Shown here: piece by piece, positions 40,290 through 60,714 of the stretch
Position numbering within the stretch: the first letter of the stretch is position 1
Layout of the letters: every line of letters starts with the position of its first letter
Assembly (NCBI GenBank): GCA_963971535.1
Contig: OZ020591.1
Location: forward strand, 11,463,588 to 11,527,587
Source of the DNA: Notolepis coatsorum
Lineage: Eukaryota > Chordata > Actinopteri > Aulopiformes > Paralepididae
Length of the DNA: 64,000 bases
Direction: 5' to 3'
Notes under the pieces: generated by a model
Database searches by the model: none
Told to the model about the DNA's origin: nothing
The model's input: the letters and a program-made list of their open reading frames with translations, nothing else
Program-made: the position numbers and the translations under genes

Positions 40290-40455
40290 GAACCCTTTCA
40301 CTGTGACAATACATAAGGTTAACCCTTTCACTGCCACACGACAAAGTGTTAACACTTTCACTACCACACTACAGAAGGTTAACCCTTTCACCCTTTCACT
40401 ACAACCCCCTGTGAAAGGTTAACCTTCTTTAGTGTGGTAGTGAAAGCGTTAAAGA
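40290..40455. repeat. GTTAACCCTTTCACTGCCAC repeat cluster
   Basis: Four imperfect plus-strand copies and one inverted copy (GTGTGGTAGTGAAAGCGTTA near 40,431-40,450). The large element inserted into the first unit of this cluster. Confidence 0.8.
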
Positions 40456-41189
40456 CCCAATCCGTAATCCAAAATGTAAACAAATTGGGGCATTCCCACC
40501 ACCAGAAATGGGAAGAAATAGCAACAAAGACCCTCTTGACACAAGAACTAGCATTAGGAACAGGTGAATGTGAGTTTTTAATTGTATTTGCTGTATTCTT
40601 TGTGACTGTATACGGTTTGTTTACATTGGTAATGTTTGTCAACACTGGGTTGAACATATTTAGGCTGTATTCTGAATTACAATGGGTTAAAGGAAAACTA
40701 GCTTAAAATTAGCTTATTTGCCATCTACCCTGGAGTAGATCAAATTCTTCAAGAATGTTTGTAAATATACCCCACATTGATATTGTAAAACAGATTGAGC
40801 CTTTAAGAAAAAAGTTATTATAATAATTATTACTAATAATAATTATTTGACTATTTTGAATATAGCCACTGAGTCATGAACTACGCTCTATGACAACGAA
40901 CTCGGTTCTAATTAGTAAGAGAGTGGATCTTACACAGCTCTCATCCTCTGCTACCATATGGAAATAATTTGGCGCCATCGAGTTGAATTTCACAGTCTAC
41001 CAGTAAGTCCTGGGAGAGGAGTGTTATGGAGCGCTCCGTCGTCTTATTGGGCACGGGTCAAACACGCTGATTAATGTTTAATGCCATTCTTGTCTGGACT
41101 CATTTAGAACCGATAGATTAGACACCCATATGAATTACATCTACAGTACACACACCACAGAACTGCTATAACCCTGCTATGATCATAGA
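40456..41189. other. non-coding stretch, present in both units
   Basis: No gene was recognised. A 90-codon open frame at 40,434-40,706 has no ATG at its start (GTG) and no family resemblance. The same sequence is at 53,013-53,756. Confidence 0.55.
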
Positions 41190-41460
41190 TTCAAGATTCA
41201 AGATTGTTTATTGTCATGTGCACAGTTAAACAGACAGTTTGCCATACAATGAAAATCTTACTTTACACAAAATCACACAATACTTAACCCTTTTTTTTTT
41301 TTTAGCCAAGGGTTTTCAAAGACAAGGGCTGGAGGCTTCCAGTCTGCCAGTCGTCCCATTCAGCTTGGTTCAGGGGGGAAAGGGTACAACTTTGGGTTGA
41401 CTTTGGGTCTTTGAAAAGCGCTATGCAAAATAAATGAATTATTATTATTATTATTACAAA
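41190..41460. repeat. fish interspersed repeat fragments and poly-T run
   Basis: TTCAAGATTGTTTATTGTCATGTGCACAG with ATACAATGAAAATCTTAC is a common fish repeat end. After a T-run (41,290-41,304) comes a piece ending in AAAAGCGCTATGCAAAATAAAT and ATT repeats, typical of a SINE or L2-type tail. On the minus strand the TTTATT at 41,207-41,212 gives an AATAAA that could serve the mcl1-like gene. Confidence 0.55.
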
Positions 41461-41482
41461 AGTCTCTTCGAGTCCAATAAAT

Positions 41483-42280
41483 TCACCTGATCAACAGGGC
41501 AAGTGTTGCCACAATCCCAGCGAAACCAGCTACAGCCATGAGAGCGTGCCTCACTGTGGACTCTGGGTCAGCCACTCGAAAGAACTCCACAAACCCATCC
41601 CAGGAATTGTTTTTCACCAGCCAGTCTCGTTGGTCAGAAAGGAGATACGTGGAGATTTCTTGGCCCACCAACGCAACGCAGTGCTGTCTGCCCATCTCCT
41701 TCAGGTACTGGCACACAACCGCCCCGAAGGCCACCAGGCTGGCAATGCGACCCCAGTTGGTGACCCCGTCACCAAAGAGGCCCTTGGCCACAGATATAAT
41801 GAAGCTCATGTCGTCCCCTCCGTTATCCAACTCCATTATTTTGTTGCGCATACCATGATATCCATATCGGTGTTTCCGGAGAAGGTCATCCACAACCCTT
41901 TTCATCGTCGAGAGAGTCTTGCCTTGCCCCCACCATGACGTAGAAAGTCCGGTAAAGTCTGTAAGGAAAGTGCCAATGAGTTCTCTTGTGTCGTTCTCCA
42001 GTGTCTCGTCCCCTGCCGGACGGCTGGGCATGTCGCGGTCACTGTCCAACAGCTCGGGAGCGCACGGCAGAGCGCCGTCGTCGCTATCGCCGATATCATC
42101 CAGGATGTTTTTAATCTGCAAAATCTTCGGCCTTGGTGGAGTATCACTACCAGCGACATTCCCATTTTGAGTATCTAAGGATGAGGCCCTCGCCCTCGCC
42201 CTCGCCCTCCCAGAGCCGCAGAGACTCGAGAAGGTTCCAGTTGTGGTCCTTTTGGTCAACGACGTAGAGAAAGTATTCAT
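41483..42280 (-). CDS. mcl1: Mcl-1-like anti-apoptotic Bcl-2 family protein, intronless (unit 1)
   Basis: A 265-residue protein. Mcl-1 binds BH3-only proteins and Bak at the mitochondrial outer membrane and blocks cell death. Visible parts are an N-terminal variable region with an Arg-Ala repeat (about 25-31), a BH3-type helix (TLSTMKRVVDDLLRKH, about 122-137), BH1 with the Mcl-1 signature DGVTNWGRI (171-179), BH2 (DWLVKNNSWDGFVEFF, 219-234) and a C-terminal membrane anchor ending ALLIR (about 246-265). BH1, BH2 and the anchor closely follow human MCL1. The N-terminal region is shorter than in human (350 aa). The start is the ATG at 42,280; the open frame extends six codons further up, but only to a TTG. 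Vertebrate MCL1 normally has three exons, with an intron near BH2, and here the frame is unbroken. That points to a retrogene. A heat-shock-type repeat array lies about 125 bp upstream. Confidence 0.9.
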   Translation of the reverse strand: MNTFSTSLTKRTTTGTFSSLCGSGRARARARASSLDTQNGNVAGSDTPPRPKILQIKNILDDIGDSDDGALPCAPELLDSDRDMPSRPAGDETLENDTRELIGTFLTDFTGLSTSWWGQGKTLSTMKRVVDDLLRKHRYGYHGMRNKIMELDNGGDDMSFIISVAKGLFGDGVTNWGRIASLVAFGAVVCQYLKEMGRQHCVALVGQEISTYLLSDQRDWLVKNNSWDGFVEFFRVADPESTVRHALMAVAGFAGIVATLALLIR

Positions 42281-42391
42281 CTTCGCGTTGTCTTTCAAAT
42301 AAATCTCGTTAGTTAAAAGTTATTTCTCTGTTGTCTCTTCAAAGTCCAGTCAAGTTATGAGTCTTCTTCTCCTTCAGTTCCCTGGGCTGCC

Positions 42392-42399
42392 TTTAAATA
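42392..42399 (-). promoter_or_regulatory. TATA-like box upstream of the mcl1-like gene
   Basis: The minus strand reads CTATTTAAAGG, about 112 bp before the ATG and within 10 bp of the first heat-shock-type repeat. The spacing allows a leader of about 80 bases. The same box is in unit 2 at 54,966-54,973. Confidence 0.55.
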
Positions 42400-42404
42400 G
42401 GACA

Positions 42405-42690
42405 CAAATGTTCTAGAATGTTCTATTATGACACATACTGTGACATCACAAATGTTCTAGAATGTTCTATTATGACATCATACTGTGACATCACAAATGT
42501 TCTAGGATGTTCTATTATGACATCATACTGTGACATCACAAATGTTCTAGAATGTTCTATTATGACATCATACTGTGCCATCACAAATGTTCTAGAATGT
42601 TCTATTATGACATCATACTGTGACATCACAAATGTTCTAGAATGTTCTATTATGACATCATACTGTGACATCACAAATGTTCTAAATCAA
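42405..42690 (-). promoter_or_regulatory. array of six 45-bp repeats with heat-shock elements, upstream of mcl1-like gene
   Basis: Each unit holds TTCTAGAATGTTC, which is TTC-nn-GAA-nn-TTC, a perfect three-pentamer heat-shock factor site. It is followed by TATGACATCATACTGTGACA and TCAC, giving two TGACATCA sites, one base from the ATF/CREB consensus TGACGTCA. Five of the six units keep the exact heat-shock core; the third has TTCTAGGATG. The units are 45 bp long (first one 44). Known biology: HSF1 trimers bind such arrays. Function here is inferred from sequence and position. Confidence 0.75.
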
Positions 42691-42860
42691 ATCAAATCAA
42701 ATCAAATTTATTTATAAGGCCCGACAACACACGTTAATGTCCCCATGGGCCGTACAGGTCTTCTTTAAACAAGTCAAGAAGAAAACATAATAAGTCAAGA
42801 ACAGAACAAGAACACCATAAGGTCCAAAAAATTTAAGATAAATAAACAAATAAATGAAAG
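42686..42860. repeat. interspersed repeat end with AAATC tail, 3' of dhx38-like gene
   Basis: CTAAATCAAATCAAATCAAA and TTTATTTATAAGGCCC match the inverted tail of a common fish SINE or LINE. On the minus strand TTTATT at 42,707-42,712 gives an AATAAA about 417 bp after the dhx38-like stop codon, a possible polyadenylation signal. Confidence 0.55.
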
Positions 42861-43128
42861 AATGCAAGGTAGGGAAGGTTGTGCTGGTGGTCTTGTGCCT
42901 TATACAAGTTCTCCCTCTAGTGGAATATAGATTAACTGCACGTTACACTGGACACGATGCCGATGGGTTGACATTATGTACACGGAGTCCCAACTGTGGG
43001 ACCAGTTCGGTTTACAGATGTGTGTGCGTGTGTGTGCCAGCGCTGGCATGGTTCAGATACTGGTGATCCTGCATCAGAAGGAGTCCAAGCAGTAGGAAGA
43101 CCAACCCTACGTCCTTCAGAGAGAAGGG

Positions 43129-46100
43129 CTACAGTCCGAAGCGGGCGGGGGTTCTCTTGGGTGTCATGGGGGCTTCCTCCATCCTTCCTGGGGTGCAGAT
43201 TTTCACAGCCACCCGGACACTGTTGACGTTACTCTTCCTGTCCTGCTCCTCTCGGCGTGATCTCCGCTGCCGCTCAGCCAGGGTCATCTCCTCCTCCATG
43301 TTAGTGATCTCCTCCTTGGCCCTCCGGCAGTTCTCCTGTCTGCTCTTGCCTGCGTGTTTGATACTATAGAACATGGGGCCCAGCTCTGCGAGCCACTCTC
43401 CCTCCACTGCAGTCACACACTGCATGTACTCCTTGGTGGTGGTCAAGAGCAGATCATGGTAGGTGATGTAATCAGGGGTGTAGCCCATCCCAAACAGGGA
43501 GCTGGTAGGGTGGAGGTGGCAGGGCATGCCCGTCCTCACGTTCACATACTCACCGATACCCTTGAGCTTGGCAGCCTGGTGGAAATAAGCAGCGCAGATA
43601 CATTTCCTGATGATGTCCGAGTCAGAGCCGCAGGAGATCAGGTTCATCCTCTGCTGAACCATGATGTCCTTCAGCTGGGAGTGGACCTCAAACACCTTGT
43701 GCATGGCCTTGGTGTGGATGAAGTGCTTGTTGCACCAGATGCTGGAGTAGTTGTTGTTCTTCCACTGCATGTAGACGTGGTGGTAGGTGAGGTGGTCGCT
43801 CTCTGGTACAGCAAACTTCTCCCTCACCTGGTCACTCTCCTCCTCGCGACCCTTGGGTCTGTAGAAGATGGCGGGAACGGACAGCATAGAGATGATGATG
43901 AGGATGTCGGCGCTGCAGCCCATGTCACATGACACGATGAGCATCTTGGAGAGAGCCGGGTCCAGAGGGAACTGCGCCATCAAGCGACCCGTCGGTGTCA
44001 GAGCGCCTGTGTTGTCGAGAGCTCCCAGGATCCACAGCTGGTACATGGAGTTCAGCATGTTGTCCTCGGGCGGCGGGTCCATGAAGTGGAAGAGCAACAG
44101 GTCCTGGACCCCCAGAGACTTCAGCAGCAGGACCACGTTGGACAGGTTGGTCCTCTGGATCTCTGGGATGGTGGTGGACAGCATCTCGTTCTTATAGGCA
44201 CTCTGAGTGTACAGCCTGTAGCACTGGCCTGGCCCTGTGCGTCCCGCTCTGCCGGCGCGCTGGTTGGCGTTGGCCTGGCTGATGGGGTACACCCGAAGGT
44301 CATCGGTGCCAATGCGAGGGTTGAACACCTTAAGTTTACAGTATCCTGCATCCACAACAAACATGATCCCATCTACAGTCAGAGACGTCTCAGCGATGTT
44401 TGTGGCAACGATGCACTTCCTCACCCCGCCTGGAGCCTTCTGGAAGATCTTGGCCTGAAGATCAGAGGGGAGCTGGGAGTAGATGGGCAGCACTTCCAGA
44501 GCAGGAGCGCTCTCCAAGTCCTCCAACCTCTCCACGATCTGATCCAACGTCACCTCGATGTCCTCCTGGCCAGGCATGAAGATCAGGATGTCTCCTGACA
44601 TGCCGCTGAGGTGGATCTGCAGGGCCTGCTTCACTGCTGCCTCCACATAGTCCTCCTGAGGAGTCTTGCTGAACAAGATGTCCACTGGGAACGTTCTTCC
44701 TGGGATGTTGAAAATCGGTACGTTGCCGAAAAACGCTGCAAATTTGTCTGAGTCCATCGTAGCCGAGGTGACTATGAGCTTCAGGTCGGCGCGCCTGGAG
44801 ACCACCTCGCGCAGCAGGCCAAACAGCACGTCAGTATTGAGGGAGCGCTCGTGGGCCTCGTCCATGATAACAACACTGTAGTGATCCAAGTCCGACTCCC
44901 TCAGCGACTCTCTCAGCAGCATACCGTCCGTCATGTACTTGATTACCGTCTTCTCTGACGTGCAGTCCTCGAAACGGATGGCGTAGCCCACCTCCTGCCC
45001 CAGGCTGATGGCCATCTCCTCGCTGACTCTCTTGGCGACGCTCATGGCGGCCACCCTGCGGGGCTGGGTGCAGCCCACCATGCCGTAGCCGGTGTAGCCG
45101 TCCTCGTGCAGGTACTGGGTGAGCTGGGTGGTCTTCCCGCTGCCCGTCTCGCCCACCACGATCACGATGCTGTTGTCCCTGATGATGTTTAGCAGCTGCT
45201 GTCTGACGGCGAAGATAGGCAGGTACTGTCTCTGCTCCAAAAGGGTTTTCTTCTTAGCAAATTCACTTGCGGCCTCAGTCTTATCTTTCATATGGTCTGC
45301 ATATTGCTGTTCTGTTCTGTAGTCCACCTTGCCGTCCTCTCCTACAGGCTTTCCCCCAGAGCTGTCCGTTTCCTCTTTCTTCTTGATGCCCATGATGTCT
45401 CCCAGCTTTGTACCCGCCAGCTCCCAGTGTTTTTGCTGTGCCTTCTTGCGTTCTTTCTGCTCATGGTGCTTACGGACCAGCTGGCTGCGCTTACGAGAGA
45501 TGATGGCCATGTCTGAGGTGGCGTCTTTGACAGGGATGACAGGCTCTGGCTGCTTAGTGAAGACTATTCTTCCGTCCAGGAAGGGAGGGACCAGGTTGTG
45601 AACCAGCAGGTGGACCTTGGCAGCGTTGTCCTCCTCAAAGTCCTCGTCCACCTCCAGCCTCTGCACCACCCCGCTGGTCAGCATGCGGTTTGTCTCCCAC
45701 CGCTCGTTGTCCTCGTTGATCTGCCGCTTCTGGGCAGATATACGTTTCTGTGTCTGTTTCTGGAGGATCTGCTCCCTCTTCTTCACGTACTCTTCAGAGG
45801 TAGCGGTCAGTGGGTTGTGGAACTCGTCGTAGCCTTCGTCCATCATGTACCAGTCCCTGTCGGCTTGCTTCTGGTCGTCCTCCCACTGCTGCTTCTCATC
45901 CTCGTTGTCGAACATAATCCCCTCCTGACTGTCTTCCTTCTTGCCTTTTCCTCGTGACAGACGAGGGGTGGAGCCCAGATGCTTCCTGTCATTGGCCCAC
46001 TCATTATACTTGTAAGAAGGGGTGGGCAGGGGCGTGTCATCAGGATAACGGCCTCTAACTGACCTGTCCCTCCTCTCACTCTCGCGGCCGGTGTGCGGGC

Positions 46101-46953
46101 TGTGCTCTGAGCGATCAGACTCTCCCCGTGAAAGAGCGGGGGATGGAGACTCCCACTGGGAATGCCTTGAGCTGCCAATACCACTGTCGTCCTCTTCCCA
46201 GTTGGAACGTGAGGGTGTAGAGGAGTCTCTGGGGCGCTGTGGAGGCGTAGGAGGCTCCTCCCTCTTGCTCCCCCGGCTGATACCATCAGTAGACCAGCCT
46301 TCTCTCTGGGAGCGCTCGCTCCTCTCGCTGCGATCTGAACGCTCGGACGAGCTGCCGCTGCTGCTGCCGCCGCGGCGGCTATGGCTGCGTTCTCCATCAT
46401 CTCTTTCACTCCGCCGGTCTCTGCCTTTCTCTCTGTTCCTCTCCCTGTCCTTTTCTCTCTCCCTATTCCTGTCCTCTTTGGAGCAGGCGTAGACCCCGTG
46501 CTCCCGTCTGTCTCTCTCTCTCTGCTGGTGTTTGTGACGGAACTCCCCGCTGACCCCCCCAGGGCTGGAGGGTGTCTCAGAGCCGGGCATCCGGTACTTC
46601 CTACTCTCCTTTCTAGCGCCTCTGTCTTCATCCTCATCCTCGTCGTTCTCTTCCTCATCGGACCCAGAATCGCTCTTGCTTTCCTCCCAGTCTCTGTAAG
46701 AAGACACCTTGGATTTCTTCGTCTGCCTGTCGTCGCTGCCTGTCTCCTCCTGCTCTCTGCTCTCACGCTCCTTCCTCTTCTGGGCCGCCAGCAGATCCAA
46801 GCCCAACAGGGAGGTGCGCGGAGAGGGCGCGCGGAAAACGTGGGGCTCCGAAGCGGCGCTCTTCTGCTTTACAATCAGTCCGCCGACCTCAGTGGTGGGG
46901 TCGCCGCCTTCCAGCCTATGCATTGACTCGTCATCGTCCATCGTCTTAGGCAT
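43129..46953 (-). CDS. dhx38: DHX38/PRP16 pre-mRNA splicing DEAH-box helicase, intronless (unit 1)
   Basis: A 1,274-residue protein (human DHX38 is 1,227). PRP16 uses ATP to remodel the spliceosome around the second catalytic step, in the nucleus. The N-terminus has the DHX38 signature HRLEGGD and [12 protein letters not shown], then a charged Arg/Ser/Glu-rich region (about 60-310), [18 protein letters not shown] and [16 protein letters not shown]. The helicase core shows [10 protein letters not shown] (motif I), [10 protein letters not shown] (Ia), DEAH (II), SAT (III), [13 protein letters not shown] (V) and [12 protein letters not shown] (VI). The winged-helix, ratchet and OB-type C-terminal regions follow, ending TPARFGL as in human. 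All catalytic motifs are intact. The gene has more than 20 exons in vertebrates but is a single open frame here, so it is almost certainly a retrogene. The ATG at 46,953 is the only start that gives the full family N-terminus. Confidence 0.95.
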
Positions 46954-47045
46954 CTTGTTTGAGCAATGCAGGCTTCAGTCTGTGTGTCAGTCCTTTTTCT
47001 TCTTCAGAATGAGATCTTTCTCACTCAGTTCACCTTCTTCTTCTT

Positions 47046-47586
47046 CTAGAATGTTATATTATGACATCATACTGTGACATCACATGTTCTAGAATGTTCT
47101 ATTATGACATCATACTGTATCACATGTTCTATTATGACATCATACTGTATCACATGTTCTATTATGACATCATACTGTAACATCACATGTTCTAGAATGT
47201 TCTATTATGACATCATACTGTAACATCAAATGTTCTAGAATGTTCTATTATGACATCATACTGTGACATCACAAATGTTCTAGAATGTTATATTATGACA
47301 TCATACTGTGACATCACAAATGTTCTAGAATGTTATATTATGACATCATACTGTGACATCACAAATGTTCTAGAATGTTATATTATGACATCATACTGTG
47401 ACATCACAAATGTTCTAGAATGTTATATTATGACATCATACTGTGACATCACAAATGTTCTAGAATGTTATATTATGACATCATACTGTGACATCACAAA
47501 TGTTCTAGAATGTTATATTATGACATCATACTGTGACATCACAAATGTTCTAGAATGTTATATTATGACATCATACTGTGACATCT
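47046..47586 (-). promoter_or_regulatory. array of about 13 heat-shock-type 45-bp repeats upstream of dhx38-like gene
   Basis: This is the same repeat as in front of the mcl1-like gene, starting about 95 bp before the dhx38 ATG. Three of the irregular units on the dhx38 side carry the full TTCTAGAATGTTC site (near 47,086, 47,191 and 47,232). The eight regular units farther out read TTCTAGAATGTTA, with the third pentamer weakened, but on the minus strand gain AATATAAC, a weak TATA-like motif. Two shortened units lack the GAA pentamer. TGACATCA is kept throughout. The leader between array and ATG is GAAGAAGAAG-rich. Confidence 0.7.
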
Positions 47587-47731
47587 AAGTCTGCAACGAT
47601 TAGTCGATATAATCGACAACATCGATCATAAAAACTCGTGGACGCCTACATTTTGCGTTGATGCATCGTATAATTTTTTTCTTTTTTATTTAAAATTTCT
47701 TAATTTTTTTATAAAATAAAAATGTTGCACT

Positions 47732-47893
47732 ACCTATCTTTGTGAAAGTGGCTTCTCAGCTCTGGTCCAGCTGAAGACAAAGCAGAGGAACAGATTGGAC
47801 ATTGAGCATGACCTCAGAGTTGCTTTGTCTACCATCACCCCAGACTTTGAGACTCTTGTCAGGAGCAAACAACATCCCCAGTTATCCCATTAG
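47732..47893 (+). pseudogene. hAT transposase C-terminal dimerisation domain remnant
   Basis: It encodes TYLCESGFSALVQLKTKQRN, RLDIEHDLRVALSTITPDFE and a short end QLSH before a TAG stop. This matches the C-terminal dimerisation region of ZBED5/FAM200-like hAT transposases (CE-GFSAL and KxRNRLxIEHDLR). The BED finger and catalytic core are missing, so no active enzyme is made. Confidence 0.85.
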
Positions 47894-48049
47894 TTCCCTG
47901 GGATGTTAAGAAGTCTGCTAAGAAGGATATATTATTTATTATTATTATTATTATTTTATTTCATTGTGTTTTTAGCCCTAGTTGCACTTTTGTTGCAACC
48001 CCAGTTATCCCATTAGTTCCCCCAAACTTACTGTCGGTCTGTTATGTGG

Positions 48050-48420
48050 TGTAGTGCACGTGGTGTAGTGGTTAACACTGCCGCCTCACAGCAAGAAGGT
48101 CCAGGGTTCGATTCCCGCTTGGGGACCAGGTTTCCATGATGCCAGGTACCCAGGTGGGGTATCTCTAAGGCCTTTCTGTGTGGAGTTTGCATGTTCTCCC
48201 CGTGCTCGCAAGGGTTTCCCCCCCCCCCCGATAAGATAAACCCAATGGAAAAACATGCACAACAACAGATCGCTAACGCTGTGGCGTCCTTGACGAAGAC
48301 GGACAGGAGCACTTGGATTGGTCCCCGGGGCGCGGCTCACGTTGACGCCCTATCTGCTCCCGGCTGCCCATGGGGGGAAGGACGACGGGATGGGTCAAGC
48401 GCAGAGACTCAATCGCATCG
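48050..48420 (+). mobile_element. tRNA-derived SINE
   Basis: TGGTGTAGTGGTTAACACTG (A box) and GGTTCGATTCCC (B box, 48,105-48,116) form an intact Pol III-type internal promoter. It is followed by TTTGCATGTTCTCCCCGTG. This copy keeps the TTCGA core lost in the one at 1612-1912. Confidence 0.8.
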
Positions 48421-48424
48421 GTAC

Positions 48425-49860
48425 TCTATCCCCCCCCTCACAGTGAGCTGTGGTGTTCCACAAGGAAGCATACTAGGACCACTACTCTTCCTAATTTATG
48501 CAAATGACATGTCGTCAGCCTGTGACTGCAACTTGTTCCTGTTTGCGGACGACTCAGCCCTGCTGGTCTCTGACAAGAACAAGTTACAGGTTGAAAAAAC
48601 CCTCAGCTCGGAACTAGGCAAAAATCTGCATATGGCTCGCTGATAACAAACTATCATTACACATGGGCAAAACAGAGTCCATTCTCTTCGGTTCAAATAA
48701 CAAACTCAGCAAGACCGACGGCTTCTCAGTTGCAGTGGGTGACAATATTGTCACAAGGAAAGACGAAATTACCTACCTGGGTTCCATCCTAGAGGCAAAT
48801 CTTTCCTGTGACAAAATGGCATCCAATGTAATAAAAAAAGTCAACCAACGAACTAGATTCTTGTACCGGATCTCCTCTCTGGTAAACAAGAATACCCTGA
48901 AGACTCTGGCAGGAGCACTCATTCAAGGGTACTACGACTATGCGTGCACCTCATGGTACCAAAGCACCTCAAAGGCGCTTAAAACAAAATTACAAACATC
49001 ACAAAACAAACTGGTCAGACTACTACTTGACCTTACCCCCAGAACCCACCTCACCCCTGCCCACTTTGACAACCTAGGATGGCTTAGAGTAGACGACAGA
49101 GTACAGCAACTTGCAATGGGCCTGGTCTACAAGATACACTATACAACTAAGGTACCCATGTACATGTCAAAATACTTCCCAAAGGTCAGTGAATACCACA
49201 ACCACTACACCAGAGGAAGCTCAACAAATCACATTAAACCCAGATTCGGCTCAAACAAGGGACTAAACATGTTTCGCAATTATGCCACATCAATGTGGAA
49301 CGCCCTACCCAAAGCTGTAAAGGAATGTGAATCCCTGCCCACATTCAAAACCGCTCTTAAAGAGCACCTACGGGAGGCTGCAATTCGAAACTGGCCACCG
49401 TAAATGCCCAAAACCCCCACCACCTCCTAATAGACAGTCTCCTCCCCACCGCATGTACATATTCCCTCCCCGCCGTATGGATATTTCTCTCCCACCCACC
49501 CACCCCCTCCTAATGTACAGTCCCCTCCCCATCATATGTATATACTCTGTCAGGATCTAGGGGTAACAGTACTGTATATTTGAATACCGTTTATGTCACA
49601 AATGTTTATCAGTACTAAATACCTATATGTCCCTATGCCATAAATGTCATGTATGTCATGTATGTTGTGTATGTCATAAATGTCTATATGAATTGAAAAT
49701 GGGGGACCCTGATGGAAACAAGACAAACGTCTTTCTCTGGTCTGCATCCCCTTAACAATTGTGTGTATTGAGCCGTACTGTATTGTACCCATTCTGCAAT
49801 CTGTTAAATAAAGTTTTCATTAATTAATTAATTAATTTATTCATTCATTCATTCGGCGAC
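48425..49860 (+). mobile_element. LINE family A copy (unit 1)
   Basis: It runs from SCGVPQGSILGPLLFLIYAN (48,442 on) through FADD (48,546-48,557) to the polymerase C-terminus at 49,403, the 3' UTR and a TTAA/ATTC tail. One extra A near 48,621-48,626 shifts the frame. The second part is open for 246 codons. The SINE abuts its 5' end. Confidence 0.88.
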
Positions 49861-50339
49861 TGAGAAAAAGACAATGCATGTGTGTGTGTGTGTATCCCGG
49901 TGTGTGTGTGCCGCTCCAATTGCATGTCCAGTTCGTTGCATGCTGAATAAAGACCCCCTAAAGAGGTCCTGCATTATTATTATTATGTTAAGCTAAGAAG
50001 TCTGCTAAGAGCCCGGAAAAGGAGCCGCGCCCACAGGAAGCAGAGATGGAGGGTGTGACAGAAATAATCGTTAGATTAGTCGACTAATCGAAAAAATTAT
50101 CGACAGATTAGTCGACTACCAAAAAAATAATCGTTAGTTGCAGCCCTAGTTTACAATATAAAAATGGAGGTGACAATGGCTCACAGCAGCAGTTAAAAAC
50201 TGTCATAGTTCGGGGGAAGGGTGACAGTGAGGTCACAGCAGCAGTCAGGTCAGAGTGTCTGCCTGGCACAAAGCAAAAGAGGGGGGTGGGGGGATCACAG
50301 TTCACAGTGTGGGGGGGGGGGCTAGGTGGGGGAGCTAGC

Positions 50340-50545
50340 ATTCTCCAGCCTGATGGCCTGTGGGTAGAAACTGTTTGTCAGAGGGCTTTCAGACTCCTGT
50401 ATCGCCTGCCTGATGGCAAGAGGTTAAAGAGTCTGTGCTGAGGGTGTGTGTGTGTGTACTGTCCTTAATGATGTTATGTGCTCTCCTGGTGGCCCTGGTA
50501 GAGTAAATGTCCTGTAGTGATAGCATAGGTCAGCAGCCACAGAAC
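50340..50545. repeat. LINE-like interspersed fragment
   Basis: CCTGATGGCCTGTGGGTAGAAACTG, CGCCTGCCTGATGGCAAGAGG and CTCCTGGTGGCCCTGGTAGAG are familiar fish LINE-type 3' sequence in reverse orientation. Exact family not assigned. Confidence 0.5.
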
Positions 50546-50639
50546 TGTTATTATAACCCTGCTGTGATCATAGCATAGGTCAGCAGCCATCAAGTCGTGG
50601 TTGAACCCAGTTCAGTGTGCACTGGTTTTGCCATCTCAT

Positions 50640-51165
50640 CTAAAAACGTGTGCCTCCAAGTTGCTCCAAGGTCCTCGATCTGGCATCATATCACGCGGCG
50701 AAGCGAACGGCTCCCGCCTACCTCCGGTCAATGGTCTCTAACTACACACCCTCAAGACCCCTCCGCTCTACATCCTCTGGCCGCCTCAGACCCACTCCTC
50801 CTATCCGAGCTGCTGGGGGTCATCAAAGAGAAGCCGCCTATTCTCGGTCCTCGCTCCACAATGGTGGAACGAACTTCCCACCACAGTCAGGACAGCTGAA
50901 TCCCAACCAATCTTTCACAGTCGACTAAAAACACACTTCTTCAATCAACATCTAAAAAAAAAAAAAAAAAATCTTCTTACTGTCCTATACTACAGTACCA
51001 TGCACTCCTCCTCCTACTATACTAATGTACTAATACTAATACTAATGTACTACTGTTTAATCATTGTTACTCAGCTGAAAGAGTTGCACCCTTCCTGCTG
51101 ACTTGTCGTACAGAACTTGCTTTGGATAAAAGCGTCAGCTAAATGACTAAATGTAAATGTAAATG
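50640..51165 (+). mobile_element. L2 LINE fragment, C-terminus and tail
   Basis: APAYLRSMVSNYTPSRPLRS matches the large L2 at 8676-11,396. It is followed by an A-run and the L2 3' end with GCGTCAGCTAAATGACTAAA and AAATGTAAATG. Small indels break the frame. Confidence 0.85.
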
Positions 51166-51299
51166 TTGCTATAGTGCATTATGACCTCCAGTTGAACTCT
51201 AAGCTACCAGTCGCAAAGCATCATGAAGCGGCTATCAGGATTCAGATAGCGGGCTTCGCGGCGAGCGCAGGTGGCGGGCGGGGAGCCATTTGCAACAAT

Positions 51300-51880
51300 G
51301 AACTGCAACACACTACACCACTAAGGTACCCATGTACATGTCGAAATGCTTCCCAAAGGTCAGTGAATACCACGACCACAACACCAGAGGGAGCTCCACA
51401 AATCATATCCAACCCAGATTCGGCTCAAACAAGGGACTAAACACGTTTCGCAATTATGCCACATCAATGTGGAACGCCCTACCTAAAGCCGTAAAATAAT
51501 GTTAATCCCATTCCCTACCCACCTTCAAAACCGCTCTCAAAGAGCACCTACGGAAGGCCGCAATTCGAAACCGGCCCCGGTAAATGTCCAACCCCCCCAA
51601 TGTACAGTTTCCTCCCCCTCAAATGTATATATTCTCTTTTATAAACTCTGTCTGTAAATAAACAGTACTGTATATTTGTATATCTTGTATGTCATAAATG
51701 TCTGGATGTATCTGTATGTCGTGTATGTCATAAATGTTATGAATTGAAAATGGGGGACCCTGATGTAAACAAGACAAAAGTCTTTCTCTGGTCTGCATCC
51801 CTGTAACAATTGTGTGTATTGAGCCGTACTGTATTGTACCCATTCTGCAATCTGGTAATAAAATGTTCAATCAATCAACA
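51300..51880 (+). mobile_element. LINE family A fragment
   Basis: It covers the last 75 or so codons (from TKVPMYMSKCFPKV) and the 3' UTR, ending in AATAAAATG and an ATCA tail. It is more diverged than the other copies, with in-frame damage near 51,497. Confidence 0.8.
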
Positions 51881-52186
51881 TTAAACAACCGTGCCGCACC
51901 ACTGGATTCGTCACACTTTCCCACACAGCATGTGTCATGTCAATGCATCATGTGAATTCAGGCTGGAGGTCGATACTGTGTTTAGCGCTTAGGCGTGTTA
52001 TCAAGGACGATGTGAGGAGAGGATGAGAAACAGAGAAAAGTGTGTGTGTGTGTGTGAGAGAGAGAGCGAGAGGGAGAGAGAGAGAGGGCAGTAGCTTGCA
52101 CACAAATGGCAGCGTGTATCAAATTCATCTCACACGTCTTATCACTTTACTTGACTGAATAACTGAATCATGACGAGACACAATTA
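51881..52186. other. no gene; GT and GA dinucleotide runs at the end of unit 1
   Basis: Short GT (52,041-52,056) and GA (52,057-52,088) tracts are present. The junction to unit 2 follows at 52,187 with a few shared bases (ACACAGC). Confidence 0.55.
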
Positions 52187-52259
52187 CACAGCTATAAACT
52201 GTATGTATGTACCACTACACTTTTTAGCTTGCTTCATATCACAGCTGTTATGTCTTATG

Positions 52260-52408
52260 ATGAATTGAAAATGGGGGACCCTGATGTAAACAAGACGAAA
52301 GTCTCTCTCTGGTCTGCATCCCCTTAACAATTGTATGTATTGAGCTGTACTGTACTGTACCCATTCTGCAATCTGTTAAATAAAGTTTTCAATCAATCAA
52401 TCAATCAA
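52260..52408 (+). mobile_element. LINE family A 3' end (unit 2)
   Basis: Counterpart of 32,431-32,580, with the same tail and flanking minisatellite-like sequence. Confidence 0.85.
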
Positions 52409-52819
52409 GCTGTATGTACCACTACACTTAGCTTGCTTCATATCACAGAACATATGAACATAGACTGAAACTAACTTTTGATCTCCTGGGCGACAACATA
52501 TTTATTTTCCAATATAGGGTTCCATGGTGGTCCAGTGGGCCTCTCTATTGTATTTATTGTAGGTGACATATTTACCTACCTTGTTTAACAACCAGGAAAG
52601 TTGGAAAGAGAAAGTTGTATGTATTGTAGTTGAAATATTGTAATCCAAATCCATGCACACAAAAAAAATGTAATTCAGCTAATTCAGCATATTAGTTACA
52701 AGATTGTGGTGGTAATGCATTCTTATGTTGATACATGAAGAGGCTTTAGTTTTGAGAAAATGGAGTTTGTTTATAGTGGCGACTGGTGGCCCCAGTGAGA
52801 AACTCATTATTGCAGTTTT
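52409..52819. other. non-coding stretch (unit 2)
   Basis: Counterpart of 32,581-32,990. It lacks three bases (GGT) near 52,795. No gene was recognised. Confidence 0.55.
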
Positions 52820-53012
52820 AGCCCTTTCACTACCACACTACCAAATGGTTAACCCTTTCACTGTGACAATACATAAGGTTAACCCTTTCACTGCCACACG
52901 ACAAAGTGTTAACACTTTCACTACCACACTACAGAAGGTTAACCCTTTCACCCTTTCACTACAACCCCCTGTGAAAGGTTAACCTTCTTTAGTGTGGTAG
53001 TGAAAGCGTTAA
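52820..53012. repeat. GTTAACCCTTTCACTGCCAC repeat cluster, uninterrupted (unit 2)
   Basis: It has the empty target site of the large element at 52,850/52,851, then the same units as 40,290-40,455. Confidence 0.8.
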
Positions 53013-54030
53013 AGACCCAATCCGTAATCCAAAATGTAAACAAATTGGGGCATTCCCACCACCAGAAATGGGAAGAAATAGCAACAAAGACCCTCTTGAC
53101 ACAAGAACTAGCATTAGGAACAGGTGAATGTGAGTTTTTAATTGTATTTGCTGTATTCTTTGTGACTGTATACGGTTTGTTTACATTGGTAATGTTTGTC
53201 AACACTGGGTTGAACATATTTAGGCTGTATTCTGAATTACAATGGGTTAAAGGAAAACTAGCTTAAAATTAGCTTATTTGCCATCTACCCTGGAGTAGAT
53301 CAAATTCTTCAAGAATGTTTGTAAATATACCCCACATTGATATTGTAAAACAGATTGAGCCTTTAAGAAAAAAGTTATTATAATAATTATTACTAATAAT
53401 AATTATTTGACTATTTTGAATATAGCCACTGAGTCATGAACTACGCTCTATGACAACGAACTCGGTTCTAATTAGTAAGAGAGTGGATCTTACACAGCTC
53501 TCATCCTCTGCTACCATATGGAAATAATTTGGCGCCATCGAGTTGAATTTCACAGTCTACCAGTAAGTCCTGGGAGAGGAGTGTTATGGAGCGCTCCGTC
53601 GTCTTATTGGGCACGGGTCAAACACGCTGATTAATGTTTAATGCCATTCTTGTCTGGACTCATTTAGAACCGATAGATTAGACACCCATATGAATTACAT
53701 CTACAGTACACACACCACAGAACTGCTATAACCCTGCTATGATCATAGATTCAAGATTCAAGATTGTTTATTGTCATGTGCACAGTTAAACAGACAGTTT
53801 GCCATACAATGAAAATCTTACTTTACACAAAATCACACAATACTTAACCCTTTTTTTTTTTTTTTTTTTTTAGCCAAGGGTTTTCAAAGACAAGGGCTGG
53901 AGGCTTCCAGTCTGCCAGTCGTCCCATTCAGCTTGGTTCAGGGGGGAAAGGGTACAACTTTGGGTTGACTTTGGGTCTTTGAAAAGCGCTATGCAAAATA
54001 AATGAATTATTATTATTATTATTACAAAAG
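53013..54030. other. non-coding stretch and repeat fragments (unit 2)
   Basis: Counterpart of 40,456-41,460. The T-run at 53,850-53,871 is longer than in unit 1 by 8 bases. Confidence 0.55.
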
Positions 54031-54050
54031 TCTCTTCGAGTCCAATAAAT

Positions 54051-54854
54051 TCACCTGATCAACAGGGCAAGTGTTGCCACAATCCCAGCGAAACCAGCTA
54101 CAGCCATGAGAGCGTGCCTCACTGTGGACTCTGGGTCAGCCACTCGAAAGAACTCCACAAACCCATCCCAGGAATTGTTTTTCACCAGCCAGTCTCGTTG
54201 GTCAGAAAGGAGATACGTGGAGATTTCTTGGCCCACCAACGCAACGCAGTGCTGTCTGCCCATCTCCTTCAGGTACTGGCACACAACCGCCCCGAAGGCC
54301 ACCAGGCTGGCAATGCGACCCCAGTTGGTGACCCCGTCACCAAAGAGGCCCTTGGCCACAGATATAATGAAGCTCATGTCGTCCCCTCCGTTATCCAACT
54401 CCATTATTTTGTTGCGCATACCATGATATCCATATCGGTGTTTCCGGAGAAGGTCATCCACAACCCTTTTCATCGTCGAGAGAGTCTTGCCTTGCCCCCA
54501 CCATGACGTAGAAAGTCCGGTAAAGTCTGTAAGGAAAGTGCCAATGAGTTCTCTTGTGTCGTTCTCCAGTGTCTCGTCCCCTGCCGGACGGCTGGGCATG
54601 TCGCGGTCACTGTCCAACAGCTCGGGAGCGCACGGCAGAGCGCCGTCGTCGCTATCGCCGATATCATCCAGGATGTTTTTAATCTGCAAAATCTTCGGCC
54701 TTGGTGGAGTATCACTACCAGCGACATTCCCATTTTGAGTATCTAAGGATGAGGCCCTCGCCCTCGCCCTCGCCCTCGCCCTCCCAGAGCCGCAGAGACT
54801 CGAGAAGGTTCCAGTTGTGGTCCTTTTGGTCAACGACGTAGAGAAAGTATTCAT
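54051..54854 (-). CDS. mcl1: Mcl-1-like anti-apoptotic Bcl-2 family protein, intronless (unit 2)
   Basis: A 267-residue protein identical to the unit 1 copy except for two extra residues (Ala-Arg) in the Arg-Ala repeat at about 25-33. That comes from one more 6-bp GCCCTC repeat (54,755-54,782). BH3, BH1 (DGVTNWGRI), BH2 and the membrane anchor are intact. The start is the ATG at 54,854. A TATA-like box (54,966-54,973) and a six-unit heat-shock-type array lie upstream. A six-base repeat-length difference in a near-identical pair fits either alleles or a very young paralogue. Confidence 0.9.
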   Translation of the reverse strand: MNTFSTSLTKRTTTGTFSSLCGSGRARARARARASSLDTQNGNVAGSDTPPRPKILQIKNILDDIGDSDDGALPCAPELLDSDRDMPSRPAGDETLENDTRELIGTFLTDFTGLSTSWWGQGKTLSTMKRVVDDLLRKHRYGYHGMRNKIMELDNGGDDMSFIISVAKGLFGDGVTNWGRIASLVAFGAVVCQYLKEMGRQHCVALVGQEISTYLLSDQRDWLVKNNSWDGFVEFFRVADPESTVRHALMAVAGFAGIVATLALLIR

Positions 54855-54965
54855 CTTCGCGTTGTCTTTCAAATAAATCTCGTTAGTTAAAAGTTATTTC
54901 TCTGTTGTGTCTTCAAAGTCCAGTCAAGTTATGAGTCTTCTTCTCCTTCAGTTCCCTGGGCTGCC

Positions 54966-54973
54966 TTTAAATA
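54966..54973 (-). promoter_or_regulatory. TATA-like box upstream of mcl1-like gene (unit 2)
   Basis: CTATTTAAAGG on the minus strand, in the same position relative to the array and the ATG as in unit 1. Confidence 0.55.
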
Positions 54974-54979
54974 GGACAC

Positions 54980-55260
54980 AAATGTTCTAGAATGTTCTAT
55001 TATGACATCATACTGTGACATCACAAATGTTCTAGAATGTTCTATTATGACATCATACTGTGACATCACAAATGTTCTAGAATGTTCTATTATGACATCA
55101 TACTGTGACATCACAAATGTTCTAGAATGTTCTATTATGACATCATACTGTGCCATCACAAATGTTCTAGAATGTTCTATTATGACATCATACTGTGACA
55201 TCACAAATGTTCTAGAATGTTCTATTATGACATCATACTGTGACATCACAAATGTTCTAA
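54980..55260 (-). promoter_or_regulatory. array of six 45-bp repeats with heat-shock elements (unit 2, mcl1 side)
   Basis: All six units keep TTCTAGAATGTTC exactly. The base change (GGATG) and the 1-base loss in the unit 1 array are absent here. One unit has TGCCATCA for TGACATCA in both copies. Confidence 0.75.
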
Positions 55261-55435
55261 ATCAAATCAAATCAAATCAAATTTATTTATAAGGCCCGAC
55301 AACACACGTTAATGTCCCCATGGGCCGTACAGGTCTTCTTTAAACAAGTCAAGAAGAAAACATAATAAGTCAAGAACAGAACAAGAACACCATAAGGTCC
55401 AAAAAATTTAAGATAAATAAACAAATAAATGAAAG
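55257..55435. repeat. interspersed repeat end with AAATC tail (unit 2)
   Basis: Counterpart of 42,686-42,860, including the minus-strand AATAAA. Confidence 0.55.
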
Positions 55436-55703
55436 AATGCAAGGTAGGGAAGGTTGTGCTGGTGGTCTTGTGCCTTATACAAGTTCTCCCTCTAGTGGAA
55501 TATAGATTAACTGCATGTTACACTGGACACGATGCCGATGGGTTGACATTATGTACACGGAGTCCCAACTGTGGGACCAGTTCGGTTTACAGATGTGTGT
55601 GCGTGTGTGTGCCAGCGCTGGCATGGTTCAGATACTGGTGATCCTGCATCAGAAGGAGTCCAAGCAGTAGGAAGACCAACCCTACGTCCTTCAGAGAGAA
55701 GGG

Positions 55704-58700
55704 CTACAGTCCGAAGCGGGCGGGGGTTCTCTTGGGTGTCATGGGGGCTTCCTCCATCCTTCCTGGGGTGCAGATTTTCACAGCCACCCGGACACTGTTG
55801 ACGTTACTCTTCCTGTCCTGCTCCTCTCGGCGTGATCTCCGCTGCCGCTCAGCCAGGGTCATCTCCTCCTCCATGTTAGTGATCTCCTCCTTGGCCCTCC
55901 GGCAGTTCTCCTGTCTGCTCTTGCCTGCGTGTTTGATACTATAGAACATGGGGCCCAGCTCTGCGAGCCACTCTCCCTCCACTGCAGTCACACACTGCAT
56001 GTACTCCTTGGTGGTGGTCAAGAGCAGATCATGGTAGGTGATGTAATCAGGGGTGTAGCCCATCCCAAACAGGGAGCTGGTAGGGTGGAGGTGGCAGGGC
56101 ATGCCCGTCCTCACGTTCACATACTCACCGATACCCTTGAGCTTGGCAGCCTGGTGGAAATAAGCAGCGCAGATACATTTCCTGATGATGTCCGAGTCAG
56201 AGCCGCAGGAGATCAGGTTCATCCTCTGCTGAACCATGATGTCCTTCAGCTGGGAGTGGACCTCAAACACCTTGTGCATGGCCTTGGTGTGGATGAAGTG
56301 CTTGTTGCACCAGATGCTGGAGTAGTTGTTGTTCTTCCACTGCATGTAGACGTGGTGGTAGGTGAGGTGGTCGCTCTCTGGTACAGCAAACTTCTCCCTC
56401 ACCTGGTCACTCTCCTCCTCGCGACCCTTGGGTCTGTAGAAGATGGCGGGAACGGACAGCATAGAGATGATGATGAGGATGTCGGCGCTGCAGCCCATGT
56501 CACATGACACGATGAGCATCTTGGAGAGAGCCGGGTCCAGAGGGAACTGCGCCATCAAGCGACCCGTCGGTGTCAGAGCGCCTGTGTTGTCGAGAGCTCC
56601 CAGGATCCACAGCTGGTACATGGAGTTCAGCATGTTGTCCTCGGGCGGCGGGTCCATGAAGTGGAAGAGCAACAGGTCCTGGACCCCCAGAGACTTCAGC
56701 AGCAGGACCACGTTGGACAGGTTGGTCCTCTGGATCTCTGGGATGGTGGTGGACAGCATCTCGTTCTTATAGGCACTCTGAGTGTACAGCCTGTAGCACT
56801 GGCCTGGCCCTGTGCGTCCCGCTCTGCCGGCGCGCTGGTTGGCGTTGGCCTGGCTGATGGGGTACACCCGAAGGTCATCGGTGCCAATGCGAGGGTTGAA
56901 CACCTTAAGTTTACAGTATCCTGCATCCACAACAAACATGATCCCATCTACAGTCAGAGACGTCTCAGCGATGTTTGTGGCAACGATGCACTTCCTCACC
57001 CCGCCTGGAGCCTTCTGGAAGATCTTGGCCTGAAGATCAGAGGGGAGCTGGGAGTAGATGGGCAGCACTTCCAGAGCAGGAGCGCTCTCCAAGTCCTCCA
57101 ACCTCTCCACGATCTGATCCAACGTCACCTCGATGTCCTCCTGGCCAGGCATGAAGATCAGGATGTCTCCTGACATGCCGCTGAGGTGGATCTGCAGGGC
57201 CTGCTTCACTGCTGCCTCCACATAGTCCTCCTGAGGAGTCTTGCTGAACAAGATGTCCACTGGGAACGTTCTTCCTGGGATGTTGAAAATCGGTACGTTG
57301 CCGAAAAACGCTGCAAATTTGTCTGAGTCCATCGTAGCCGAGGTGACTATGAGCTTCAGGTCGGCGCGCCTGGAGACCACCTCGCGCAGCAGGCCAAACA
57401 GCACGTCAGTATTGAGGGAGCGCTCGTGGGCCTCGTCCATGATAACAACACTGTAGTGATCCAAGTCCGACTCCCTCAGCGACTCTCTCAGCAGCATACC
57501 GTCCGTCATGTACTTGATTACCGTCTTCTCTGACGTGCAGTCCTCGAAACGGATGGCGTAGCCCACCTCCTGCCCCAGGCTGATGGCCATCTCCTCGCTG
57601 ACTCTCTTGGCGACGCTCATGGCGGCCACCCTGCGGGGCTGGGTGCAGCCCACCATGCCGTAGCCGGTGTAGCCGTCCTCGTGCAGGTACTGGGTGAGCT
57701 GGGTGGTCTTCCCGCTGCCCGTCTCGCCCACCACGATCACGATGCTGTTGTCCCTGATGATGTTTAGCAGCTGCTGTCTGACGGCGAAGATAGGCAGGTA
57801 CTGTCTCTGCTCCAAAAGGGTTTTCTTCTTAGCAAATTCACTTGCGGCCTCAGTCTTATCTTTCATATGGTCTGCATATTGCTGTTCTGTTCTGTAGTCC
57901 ACCTTGCCGTCCTCTCCTACAGGCTTTCCCCCAGAGCTGTCCGTTTCCTCTTTCTTCTTGATGCCCATGATGTCTCCCAGCTTTGTACCCGCCAGCTCCC
58001 AGTGTTTTTGCTGTGCCTTCTTGCGTTCTTTCTGCTCATGGTGCTTACGGACCAGCTGGCTGCGCTTACGAGAGATGATGGCCATGTCTGAGGTGGCGTC
58101 TTTGACAGGGATGACAGGCTCTGGCTGCTTAGTGAAGACTATTCTTCCGTCCAGGAAGGGAGGGACCAGGTTGTGAACCAGCAGGTGGACCTTGGCAGCG
58201 TTGTCCTCCTCAAAGTCCTCGTCCACCTCCAGCCTCTGCACCACCCCGCTGGTCAGCATGCGGTTTGTCTCCCACCGCTCGTTGTCCTCGTTGATCTGCC
58301 GCTTCTGGGCAGATATACGTTTCTGTGTCTGTTTCTGGAGGATCTGCTCCCTCTTCTTCACGTACTCTTCAGAGGTAGCGGTCAGTGGGTTGTGGAACTC
58401 GTCGTAGCCTTCGTCCATCATGTACCAGTCCCTGTCGGCTTGCTTCTGGTCGTCCTCCCACTGCTGCTTCTCATCCTCGTTGTCGAACATAATCCCCTCC
58501 TGACTGTCTTCCTTCTTGCCTTTTCCTCGTGACAGACGAGGGGTGGAGCCCAGATGCTTCCTGTCATTGGCCCACTCATTATACTTGTAAGAAGGGGTGG
58601 GCAGGGGCGTGTCATCAGGATAACGGCCTCTAACTGACCTGTCCCTCCTCTCACTCTCGCGGCCGGTGTGCGGGCTGTGCTCTGAGCGATCAGACTCTCC

Positions 58701-59528
58701 CCGTGAAAGAGCGGGGGATGGAGACTCCCACTGGGAATGCCTTGAGCTGCCAATACCACTGTCGTCCTCTTCCCAGTTGGAACGTGAGGGTGTAGAGGAG
58801 TCTCTGGGGCGCTGTGGAGGCGTAGGAGGCTCCTCCCTCTTGCTCCCCCGGCTGATACCATCAGTAGACCAGCCTTCTCTCTGGGAGCGCTCGCTCCTCT
58901 CGCTGCGATCTGAACGCTCGGACGAGCTGCCGCTGCTGCTGCCGCCGCGGCGGCTATGGCTGCGTTCTCCATCATCTCTTTCACTCCGCCGGTCTCTGCC
59001 TTTCTCTCTGTTCCTCTCCCTGTCCTTTTCTCTCTCCCTATTCCTGTCCTCTTTGGAGCAGGCGTAGACCCCGTGCTCCCGTCTGTCTCTCTCTCTCTGC
59101 TGGTGTTTGTGACGGAACTCCCCGCTGACCCCCCCAGGGCTGGAGGGTGTCTCAGAGCCGGGCATCCGGTACTTCCTACTCTCCTTTCTAGCGCCTCTGT
59201 CTTCATCCTCATCCTCGTCGTTCTCTTCCTCATCGGACCCAGAATCGCTCTTGCTTTCCTCCCAGTCTCTGTAAGAAGACACCTTGGATTTCTTCGTCTG
59301 CCTGTCGTCGCTGCCTGTCTCCTCCTGCTCTCTGCTCTCACGCTCCTTCCTCTTCTGGGCCGCCAGCAGATCCAAGCCCAACAGGGAGGTGCGCGGAGAG
59401 GGCGCGCGGAAAACGTGGGGCTCCGAAGCGGCGCTCTTCTGCTTTACAATCAGTCCGCCGACCTCAGTGGTGGGGTCGCCGCCTTCCAGCCTATGCATTG
59501 ACTCGTCATCGTCCATCGTCTTAGGCAT
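55704..59528 (-). CDS. dhx38: DHX38/PRP16 pre-mRNA splicing DEAH-box helicase, intronless (unit 2)
   Basis: A 1,274-residue protein, identical in sequence to the unit 1 copy over its whole length. It has all the helicase motifs ([42 protein letters not shown]) and the DHX38-specific N- and C-terminal blocks. No intron, stop or frameshift is present. Identity of two 3.8-kb frames means the duplication is very recent, the two are alleles, or they are kept alike by conversion. The heat-shock-type array upstream is two units longer than in unit 1. Confidence 0.95.
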
Positions 59529-59620
59529 CTTGTTTGAGCAATGCAGGCTTCAGTCTGTGTGTCAGTCCTTTTTCTTCTTCAGAATGAGATCTTTCTCACT
59601 CAGTTCACCTTCTTCTTCTT

Positions 59621-60251
59621 CTAGAATGTTATATTATGACATCATACTGTGACATCACATGTTCTAGAATGTTCTATTATGACATCATACTGTATCACAT
59701 GTTCTATTATGACATCATACTGTATCACATGTTCTATTATGACATCATACTGTAACATCACATGTTCTAGAATGTTCTATTATGACATCATACTGTAACA
59801 TCAAATGTTCTAGAATGTTCTATTATGACATCATACTGTGACATCACAAATGTTCTAGAATGTTATATTATGACATCATACTGTGACATCACAAATGTTC
59901 TAGAATGTTATATTATGACATCATACTGTGACATCACAAATGTTCTAGAATGTTATATTATGACATCATACTGTGACATCACAAATGTTCTAGAATGTTA
60001 TATTATGACATCATACTGTGACATCACAAATGTTCTAGAATGTTATATTATGACATCATACTGTGACATCACAAATGTTCTAGAATGTTATATTATGACA
60101 TCATACTGTGACATCACAAATGTTCTAGAATGTTATATTATGACATCATACTGTGACATCACAAATGTTCTAGAATGTTATATTATGACATCATACTGTG
60201 ACATCACAAATGTTCTAGAATGTTATATTATGACATCATACTGTGACATCT
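59621..60251 (-). promoter_or_regulatory. array of about 15 heat-shock-type 45-bp repeats (unit 2, dhx38 side)
   Basis: It has the same order of irregular then regular units as 47,046-47,586, with two more regular units. Full TTCTAGAATGTTC sites lie near 59,661, 59,766 and 59,807. The length difference marks the array as variable. Confidence 0.7.
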
Positions 60252-60396
60252 AAGTCTGCAACGATTAGTCGATATAATCGACAACATCGATCATAAAAAC
60301 TCGTGGACGCCTACATTTTGCGTTGATGCATCGTATAATTTTTTTTTTTTTTATTTAAAATTTCTTAATTTTTTTATAAAATAAAAATGTTGCACT

Positions 60397-60558: not shown

Positions 60559-60714
60559 TTCCCTGGGATGTTAAGAAGTCTGCTAAGAAGGATATATTAT
60601 TTATTATTATTATTATTATTTTATTTCATTGTGTTTTTAGCCCTAGTTGCACTTTTGTTGCAACCCCAGTTATCCCATTAGTTCCCCCAAACTTACTGTC
60701 GGTCTGTTATGTGG

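Follow-up and report, generated by a model that had tools for sequence, protein, structure and literature searches.

Intronless dhx38 in a fish genome as a probable retrocopy of a chimeric message within a dispersed heat shock element array

In Caenorhabditis, clusters of heat shock elements (HSEs) carried by Helitrons can bring host genes under the control of the heat shock factor HSF-1, and dense HSE clusters stood out only in this genus among the species examined (PMC6927752). Human satellite III is made of tandem repeats which have been described as controlled by HSF1 in stress (PMC8535310, PMC9032817, PMC5511177). Long interspersed nuclear elements (LINEs) which recognise their own tail drive retroposition (PMC3747384), and splicing is inhibited by heat (PMC5406028). 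Here we analyse a 64-kb piece of contig C23 of a 3.42-Gb fish assembly; this whole stretch is called the window. In it the intronless gene dhx38 stands behind an array of 45-bp units which contain HSEs. We consider it quite probable, from the sequence features described below, that this gene arose by retroposition of a spliced message of chimeric nature, in which the leader of a dispersed HSE family had been joined to exon 2 of dhx38, that it lies within an array of the same family and that it is likely to be under HSF control. Among the papers listed in searches of the open-access literature none describes a dispersed family of HSE promoters from a fish, which does not prove its absence, and nothing relevant was listed on dhx38 as a retrogene.

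The leader exon and the insertion of dhx38

The open reading frame (ORF) of dhx38 codes for a complete DHX38/PRP16 protein, colinear with the PRP16 chain 5yzg_Z. The gene has no introns and was copied from a parent with many exons, as had been proposed in the first-pass annotation: a DNA search finds 26 exon matches at 95–100% in a parental gene on contig C49, and each copy in the window is a single match of 3,825 bp without introns. Under the GT/GC-AG rule 23 of the 25 parental junctions join without a gap; the remaining two leave gaps of 2 and 3 nt. Many parental exons are found in two sets, C49:66266234–66380222, the one read here, and 66493032–66585135; the region may be duplicated, or two haplotypes may have been left unresolved. 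Uninterrupted matches to dhx38 of 1.3–1.5 kb, at 66–67%, are also found in C9:175658143–175659472, C8:77604721–77606248 and C23:10441390–10442920; these may be copies, also without introns, of genes for other DEAH helicases.

The leader and the first three codons of dhx38 (ATGCCTAAG, which includes the start codon) together form a dispersed leader exon. The 36 nt at its end, ATGCCTAAG included, are found with up to three mismatches in 203 places of the genome (control 0). Fifteen of these places are exact, and three of the exact ones are dhx38 copies. Five of the other 12 were read (L065–L069): all five have a GTGAGT splice donor exactly where the window reads ACGATGG, which belongs to dhx38 exon 2. 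Counted by eye, L065 and L069 share 71 of the 73 nt which lead up to the junction. These two loci are not independent, since their surroundings are near-identical; both have an HSE unit and a TATA box in front of the leader. At the matching border the parental gene has the acceptor CTCTCTCCAG, ending in CAG, directly before ACGATGG. The donor of the leader copies and the acceptor of the parent therefore meet at the dhx38 junction, and for this reason we read the gene as a probable retrocopy of a spliced, chimeric mRNA.

The relation of the leader to the family is also apparent in sequence comparisons. It matches the leader of L014 in 28 of 32 nt, with a score of 44 (at most 30 in 1,000 shuffles), and its comparison with the family leaders gives p 0.002; at L014 and L047 the sister leader is positioned after arrays. 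A fourth copy of dhx38, on contig C3224 (97% identity), has eight frameshifting indels and stops where a parental exon does. At the 5' end of this copy, beyond array remnants, there is a related family leader which ends in GTGGAAAG and is joined to the same exon-2 border; this leader scores 74, the shuffle maximum being 25.

The array upstream of dhx38 (array B) has the same orientation as another array found upstream of the neighbouring mcl1-like gene (array A). Array A stops in the middle of a unit at TTCTA, where the 3' tail of the dhx38 insert follows at once; array B starts in the middle of a unit, again at TTCTA, and directly abuts the leader. Both ends are in register within the 45-bp unit, and neither is separated from the insert by a single nucleotide. 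The outer ends are different: array A keeps the proximal boundary CATTTGTG and array B the distal GACATC, which is seen at several other loci. The simplest reading is that a dhx38 retrocopy would have been inserted into what was one promoter array of the mcl1-like gene. The 3' region of dhx38 has no poly(A), its longest run of A being 3 nt in 444 bp. In its place the tail ends with (ATTTG)n, as in LINEs which do not use poly(A), and it contains a predicted hairpin (z −2.3). In a third copy of the block, at 134.69 Mb in the same contig, the two arrays and the tail are retained, and the dhx38 ORF, of 1272 aa, is intact.

The 45-bp arrays and their dispersed family

About 13 units of a 45-bp repeat had been placed some 95 bp before the dhx38 ATG by the first-pass annotation, which also described their third pentamer as weakened (TTA for TTC). 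Both statements are confirmed. Array B has 13 TATTATGACATCATACTGT anchors between 47057 and 47561, and its first TTCTAGAA core, at 47044, is 90 bp from the ATG (46953). There are 11 cores in this array, together with two 30-bp units without a core. Eight of the cores are followed by TGTTA, and three (47087, 47190 and 47233) by TGTTC, which gives a perfect TTCnnGAAnnTTC. Arrays of nGAAn/nTTCn pentamers near the dhx38 start are in agreement with a heat shock promoter driven by HSF.

All 17 strict HSEs of the window are found within its four 45-bp arrays (the average in 100 shuffles is 0.39), and so are all 35 copies of TTCTAGAA. The full unit also holds two TGACATCA octamers; 67 of the 70 copies in the window are inside the arrays. 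An HSE and an ATF-type site were found together in one of 400,000 shuffled 45-mers. In the E-selectin promoter TGACATCATTG is given as PDII, a site bound by ATF2 (PMC4973847). A scan for bacterial promoters found nothing. Control of the dhx38 copy by HSF through array B is predicted from its motifs.

The idea that the array is a private feature of dhx38 and mcl1-like had to be dropped: a 31-mer from its core (up to three mismatches) is found in 23,196 places of the genome, and the reversed control in none. The earlier description of a heat-shock-type array before dhx38 is right as to the sequence beside its 5' end; it was not specially recruited by this gene, being one of many dispersed copies of a promoter family. 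Of the 100 places listed, all of them exact and all on contig C1, the perfect TTC form accounts for 94 and the TTA form, which is the prevailing one before dhx38, for six. Seventeen arrays were read in promoter orientation, near-duplicates included: 11 have a TATA box within 24 nt downstream and six do not, and the boundary CATTTGTG is present in 12.

Several kinds of sequence are found behind these promoters. In L046 a double-RING ORF starts about 70 bp past the TATA box. BTB, BACK and kelch domains are found farther downstream in L044 and L047; in L048, which lies downstream of L014, there is a kelch match at 77% and a BTB match at 73%. The ORF search in L043 and L045 gave transposon-type ORFs or none that could be named. 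Some of these genes may be of the finTRIM or klhl10 type. In mcl1-like the position of the TATA-like TATTTAAAG, between array A and its start, and the array boundary are as in the family; for the mcl1-like leader the agreement is not clear (p 0.096 against the family leaders). A leader shared by mcl1-like and dhx38 was rejected, since the best local matches between them are not significant (p 0.17 and 0.49).

The distribution of the family in contig C1 has some peculiarities. In C1:17573625–17598049 pattern matches give five HSE promoter arrays at regular intervals of about 6 kb, which may precede the genes of a tandem cluster; one unit of it was read (L046, C1:17574000–17580499). Between 1.92 and 2.10 Mb (L014 to L021) there are inverted copies of HSE-promoter loci about 180 kb apart. 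L043 (C1:8507500–8514499) has reverse-transcriptase and GIY-YIG-like ORFs near an HSE promoter, which we take to be Penelope-like.

We propose the following history. A dispersed promoter would have driven a transcript whose leader, with an in-frame ATG, was spliced at AAG/GTGAGT into the CAG/ACGATGG border of dhx38. The spliced message, with its LINE-like hairpin and (ATTTG)n, would have been reverse-transcribed and inserted in the middle of a unit upstream of mcl1-like, with a duplication of 5 bp. This would leave the array in two halves, the one before dhx38 with about 13 units and the one before mcl1-like with about six; the block would later have been copied in tandem and to 134.69 Mb. The cores are predicted to be bound by HSF1 or another HSF, and TGACATCA perhaps by ATF2/c-Jun; dhx38 would be transcribed without need for splicing. 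Tentatively, and with less than even confidence, this may be extended to the whole family: a gene-trap cassette, formed by 45-bp HSE and ATF-type units, a TATA box and a leader exon with ATG and donor, may have spread throughout the genome and spliced into genes which it met, some of the chimeric mRNAs being retroposed into other arrays of the family. A spliceosomal ATPase, the anti-apoptotic Mcl1, RING and BTB-kelch genes might then share a single programme under HSF control. The inhibition of splicing by heat was reportedly described by Yost and Lindquist in 1986, and Stankiewicz is said to have tied Mcl-1 degradation to heat-induced apoptosis in 2009. Heat-inducible dhx38 and mcl1 would therefore make sense, which is a matter of plausibility and not evidence.

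The dhx38 protein and alternative explanations

Several observations weigh against the history which we propose. The 5-bp duplication is weak alone, as duplications of 4–20 bp were accepted and about 17 of the 45 phases would fit by chance. Three of the five other exact leader copies which were read have a GAA-rich tract and no HSE unit in the 260–280 nt read upstream, so that the leader exon also occurs with no array in front. Exon 1 of the parental gene was not found, and the 1.9 kb before parental exon 2 have neither array nor leader; contig C49 has none of the 100 leader places listed out of 203. One of the 120 DHX38 relatives, Sparus P0061, starts with MPKT like the copy, which could mean that exon 1 is old and native. 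The TATA box usual in the family is absent from the dhx38 array, where the only similar sequence nearby is ATATAAC, inside a TTA unit. Finally, no protein near-identical to the dhx38 copy is found among the 120 relatives listed, and therefore no sign of its expression has been seen.

The promoter family might serve the germ line instead of the response to heat. In this alternative, which we find rather unlikely, it acts through HSF2 or HSF5 on testis-type genes, and dhx38 and mcl1-like are germ-line retrogenes. Retrogenes are often expressed in the germ line, and BTB-kelch exons are found downstream of some family promoters; however, the link of such klhl10-like genes to testis is our own assumption. 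HSF5 prefers short HSEs (PMC12366260, PMC11059408), comparable with the two perfect pentamers and weakened third of eight of the 11 dhx38 cores, and zebrafish hsf5 knockouts are male-infertile (PMC12366260). On the other hand, the commonest form of the unit is a perfect three-pentamer site, as given above for contig C1, and it suits HSF1; mouse HSF5 was reported to favour a single GAA triplet (PMC11059408).

It might also be that the dhx38 copies are young and mostly neutral retrocopies which fell by chance into a common repeat, the array having no role. This we doubt to a similar degree, and the protein has features on both sides. Its helicase and catalytic motifs are intact, its best full-length relatives are 88–89% identical among 120 matches listed from a very large protein collection, and in protein trees it is found near the base of acanthomorph fishes. 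The full ORF is present in three of the four copies, which speaks against neutrality, although two of the three are a near-identical tandem pair and the fourth copy is frameshifted. In the window copy 24 of 744 near-invariant residues are changed: the parent is conserved at 14 of them, as might be expected of a neutral copy, shares the change at seven and differs from both at three. The changes are concentrated in the HA2/OB region (13 of 181, against 11 of 563; p 0.0013). An unusually fast protein overall was rejected, as the length of the dhx38 branch, 0.135, falls below the median for paths in its clade (0.18); only the excess in near-invariant columns stands out.

Substitution counts are also divided. 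Between copy and parent there are 22.5 synonymous and 41.5 replacement differences, with a ratio of replacement to synonymous rates (dN/dS) of 0.51. Tested against neutrality this has p 0.014, but the parental branch adds constrained change: the ratio could stem from the constraint of the parent itself, and it would agree with near neutrality if this is allowed for. Neutral drift to 24 conserved changes leaves no stop in 12.5% of simulations, in which indels are not counted. Against a neutral origin, the window copy and the third copy differ by five synonymous and four replacement changes (dN/dS 0.22, p 0.028), and the tandem copies have the 3,825-bp ORF without a single substitution. The low replacement count between the window copy and the third copy is in favour of a working protein. 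The 23,196 units counted, at 45 bp each, make up only about 0.03% of the 3.42-Gb genome, and a chance landing in an array is therefore unlikely. From the ratios of 0.51 and 0.22 and the near-invariant changes we lean towards a translated but relaxed or altered protein. The 24 changes at conserved sites, the ratio of 0.51 and the lack of a close protein among the matches listed call for caution with the idea that the copy rescues splicing after heat.

The leader exon could also be exon 1 of dhx38 itself, from which the BTB-kelch and other loci acquired it. The MPKT start of the Sparus protein would suit such an origin. It appears improbable, given the 203 dispersed leader places with none in the control, the splice donor in all five copies read, the different version of the family leader joined to the same border in the fourth copy and the absence of the leader from the 1.9 kb before parental exon 2. 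Slightly less probable still is that arrays A and B are independent copies of an abundant family, whose listed matches are often close together, and that recombination placed dhx38 and its leader between them with no insertion: there is no unique DNA between insert and arrays, which are in the same phase with a 5-bp duplication, and their ends are complementary, one half having a proximal boundary and the other a distal one known elsewhere.

Neighbouring features and comparison with known systems

The coordinates of all features are given in Table 1. A unit of 12.56 kb with mcl1-like and dhx38 is repeated head to tail. Its two copies differ by six substitutions and a few indels over about 11 kb, and array B is two units longer in the second. 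The sequence adjoining the second copy reads N, so that the duplication may be an artefact of assembly. The element which adjoins the distal end of array B we take to be of the hAT class. On the 3' side of mcl1-like, in 41001–41482, there is a tail of the dispersed-repeat kind, in which AATAAA and repeated TTGAATC are present, and a similar piece is found at 50537–50573. Because of this tail mcl1-like may be a LINE-tailed retrocopy; the parental mcl1 is presumably a gene with three exons. Two other tandem repeats in the window have no strict HSEs: one of 43 bp with about 97 copies (14223–18454) and one of 41 bp with about 36 copies (30915–32424). The region 32361–33027 recurs at 52187–52853 with 99% identity.

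Table 1. Position of the features found in the window
Feature	Position	Strand	Basis or remark
dhx38 (DHX38/PRP16), intronless ORF, 1274 aa	43129–46953	-	ORF list, protein search
dhx38 leader	46954–47043	-	Leader comparison
ATGCCTAAG, dhx38 codons 1–3 with start codon	46945–46953	-	From dispersed leader exon
Array B, upstream of dhx38	47044–47585	-	13 anchors of 45-bp unit
dhx38 3' region	42685–43128	-	Predicted hairpin, AATAAA, (ATTTG)n at end
Target-site duplication TTCTA, 5' side of dhx38 insert	47044–47048	n/a	
Target-site duplication TTCTA, 3' side of dhx38 insert	42680–42684	n/a	
Array A, other half of split array, upstream of mcl1-like	42403–42684	-	5 perfect HSEs
TATA-like TATTTAAAG, before mcl1-like	42391–42399	-	Few bases past array A end CATTTGTG
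mcl1-like, single-exon ORF (Bcl-2 family)	41483–42280	-	
Remains of hAT-like element, adjoining distal end of array B	47586–50150		Far end (about 50150) placed by eye from terminal repeats
12.56-kb unit with mcl1-like and dhx38	40291–52850		Head-to-tail repeat
Second tandem copy of 12.56-kb unit	52851–64000		
dhx38 ORF, second tandem copy	55704–59528	-	Sequence identical
Array B, second tandem copy	59619–60250	-	15 anchors
Array A, second tandem copy	54977–55259	-	6 perfect HSEs

If the history proposed is right, a vertebrate would match Caenorhabditis in having many thousands of dispersed HSE units with unrelated genes behind them, and their spread would work by means of a promoter exon which is spliced into genes and copied back with them. 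One could then test directly if cells recover better from heat when a splicing factor has a source which is induced by stress and independent of splicing. The case would also be a test of promoter acquisition by retrogenes, in which the exon of the promoter is carried along and lands in more of the same promoter.

The nearest precedent is that of the Helitron HSEs of Caenorhabditis (PMC6927752), also a dispersed repeat with clustered HSEs able to put host genes under HSF-1. Here we have instead a vertebrate, with a 45-bp array, a TATA box and a leader in many of the sampled loci, and the heat response is predicted. Zebrafish chimeric retrogenes (PMC3091775) are likewise fish retrogenes which form chimeric genes; in dhx38 the foreign exon would be within the retroposed message and come from a dispersed leader exon. 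Retroposition dependent on a LINE tail (PMC3747384) resembles our case by the predicted hairpin and (ATTTG)n which end the insert without poly(A). In dhx38, however, a full host gene is carried, with a tail which is LINE-like. Human satellite III is pericentric and non-coding, whereas the fish arrays stand before genes. The hsp70 genes are intronless behind HSEs, an arrangement which dhx38 shares, with the difference that its product is a spliceosomal ATPase.
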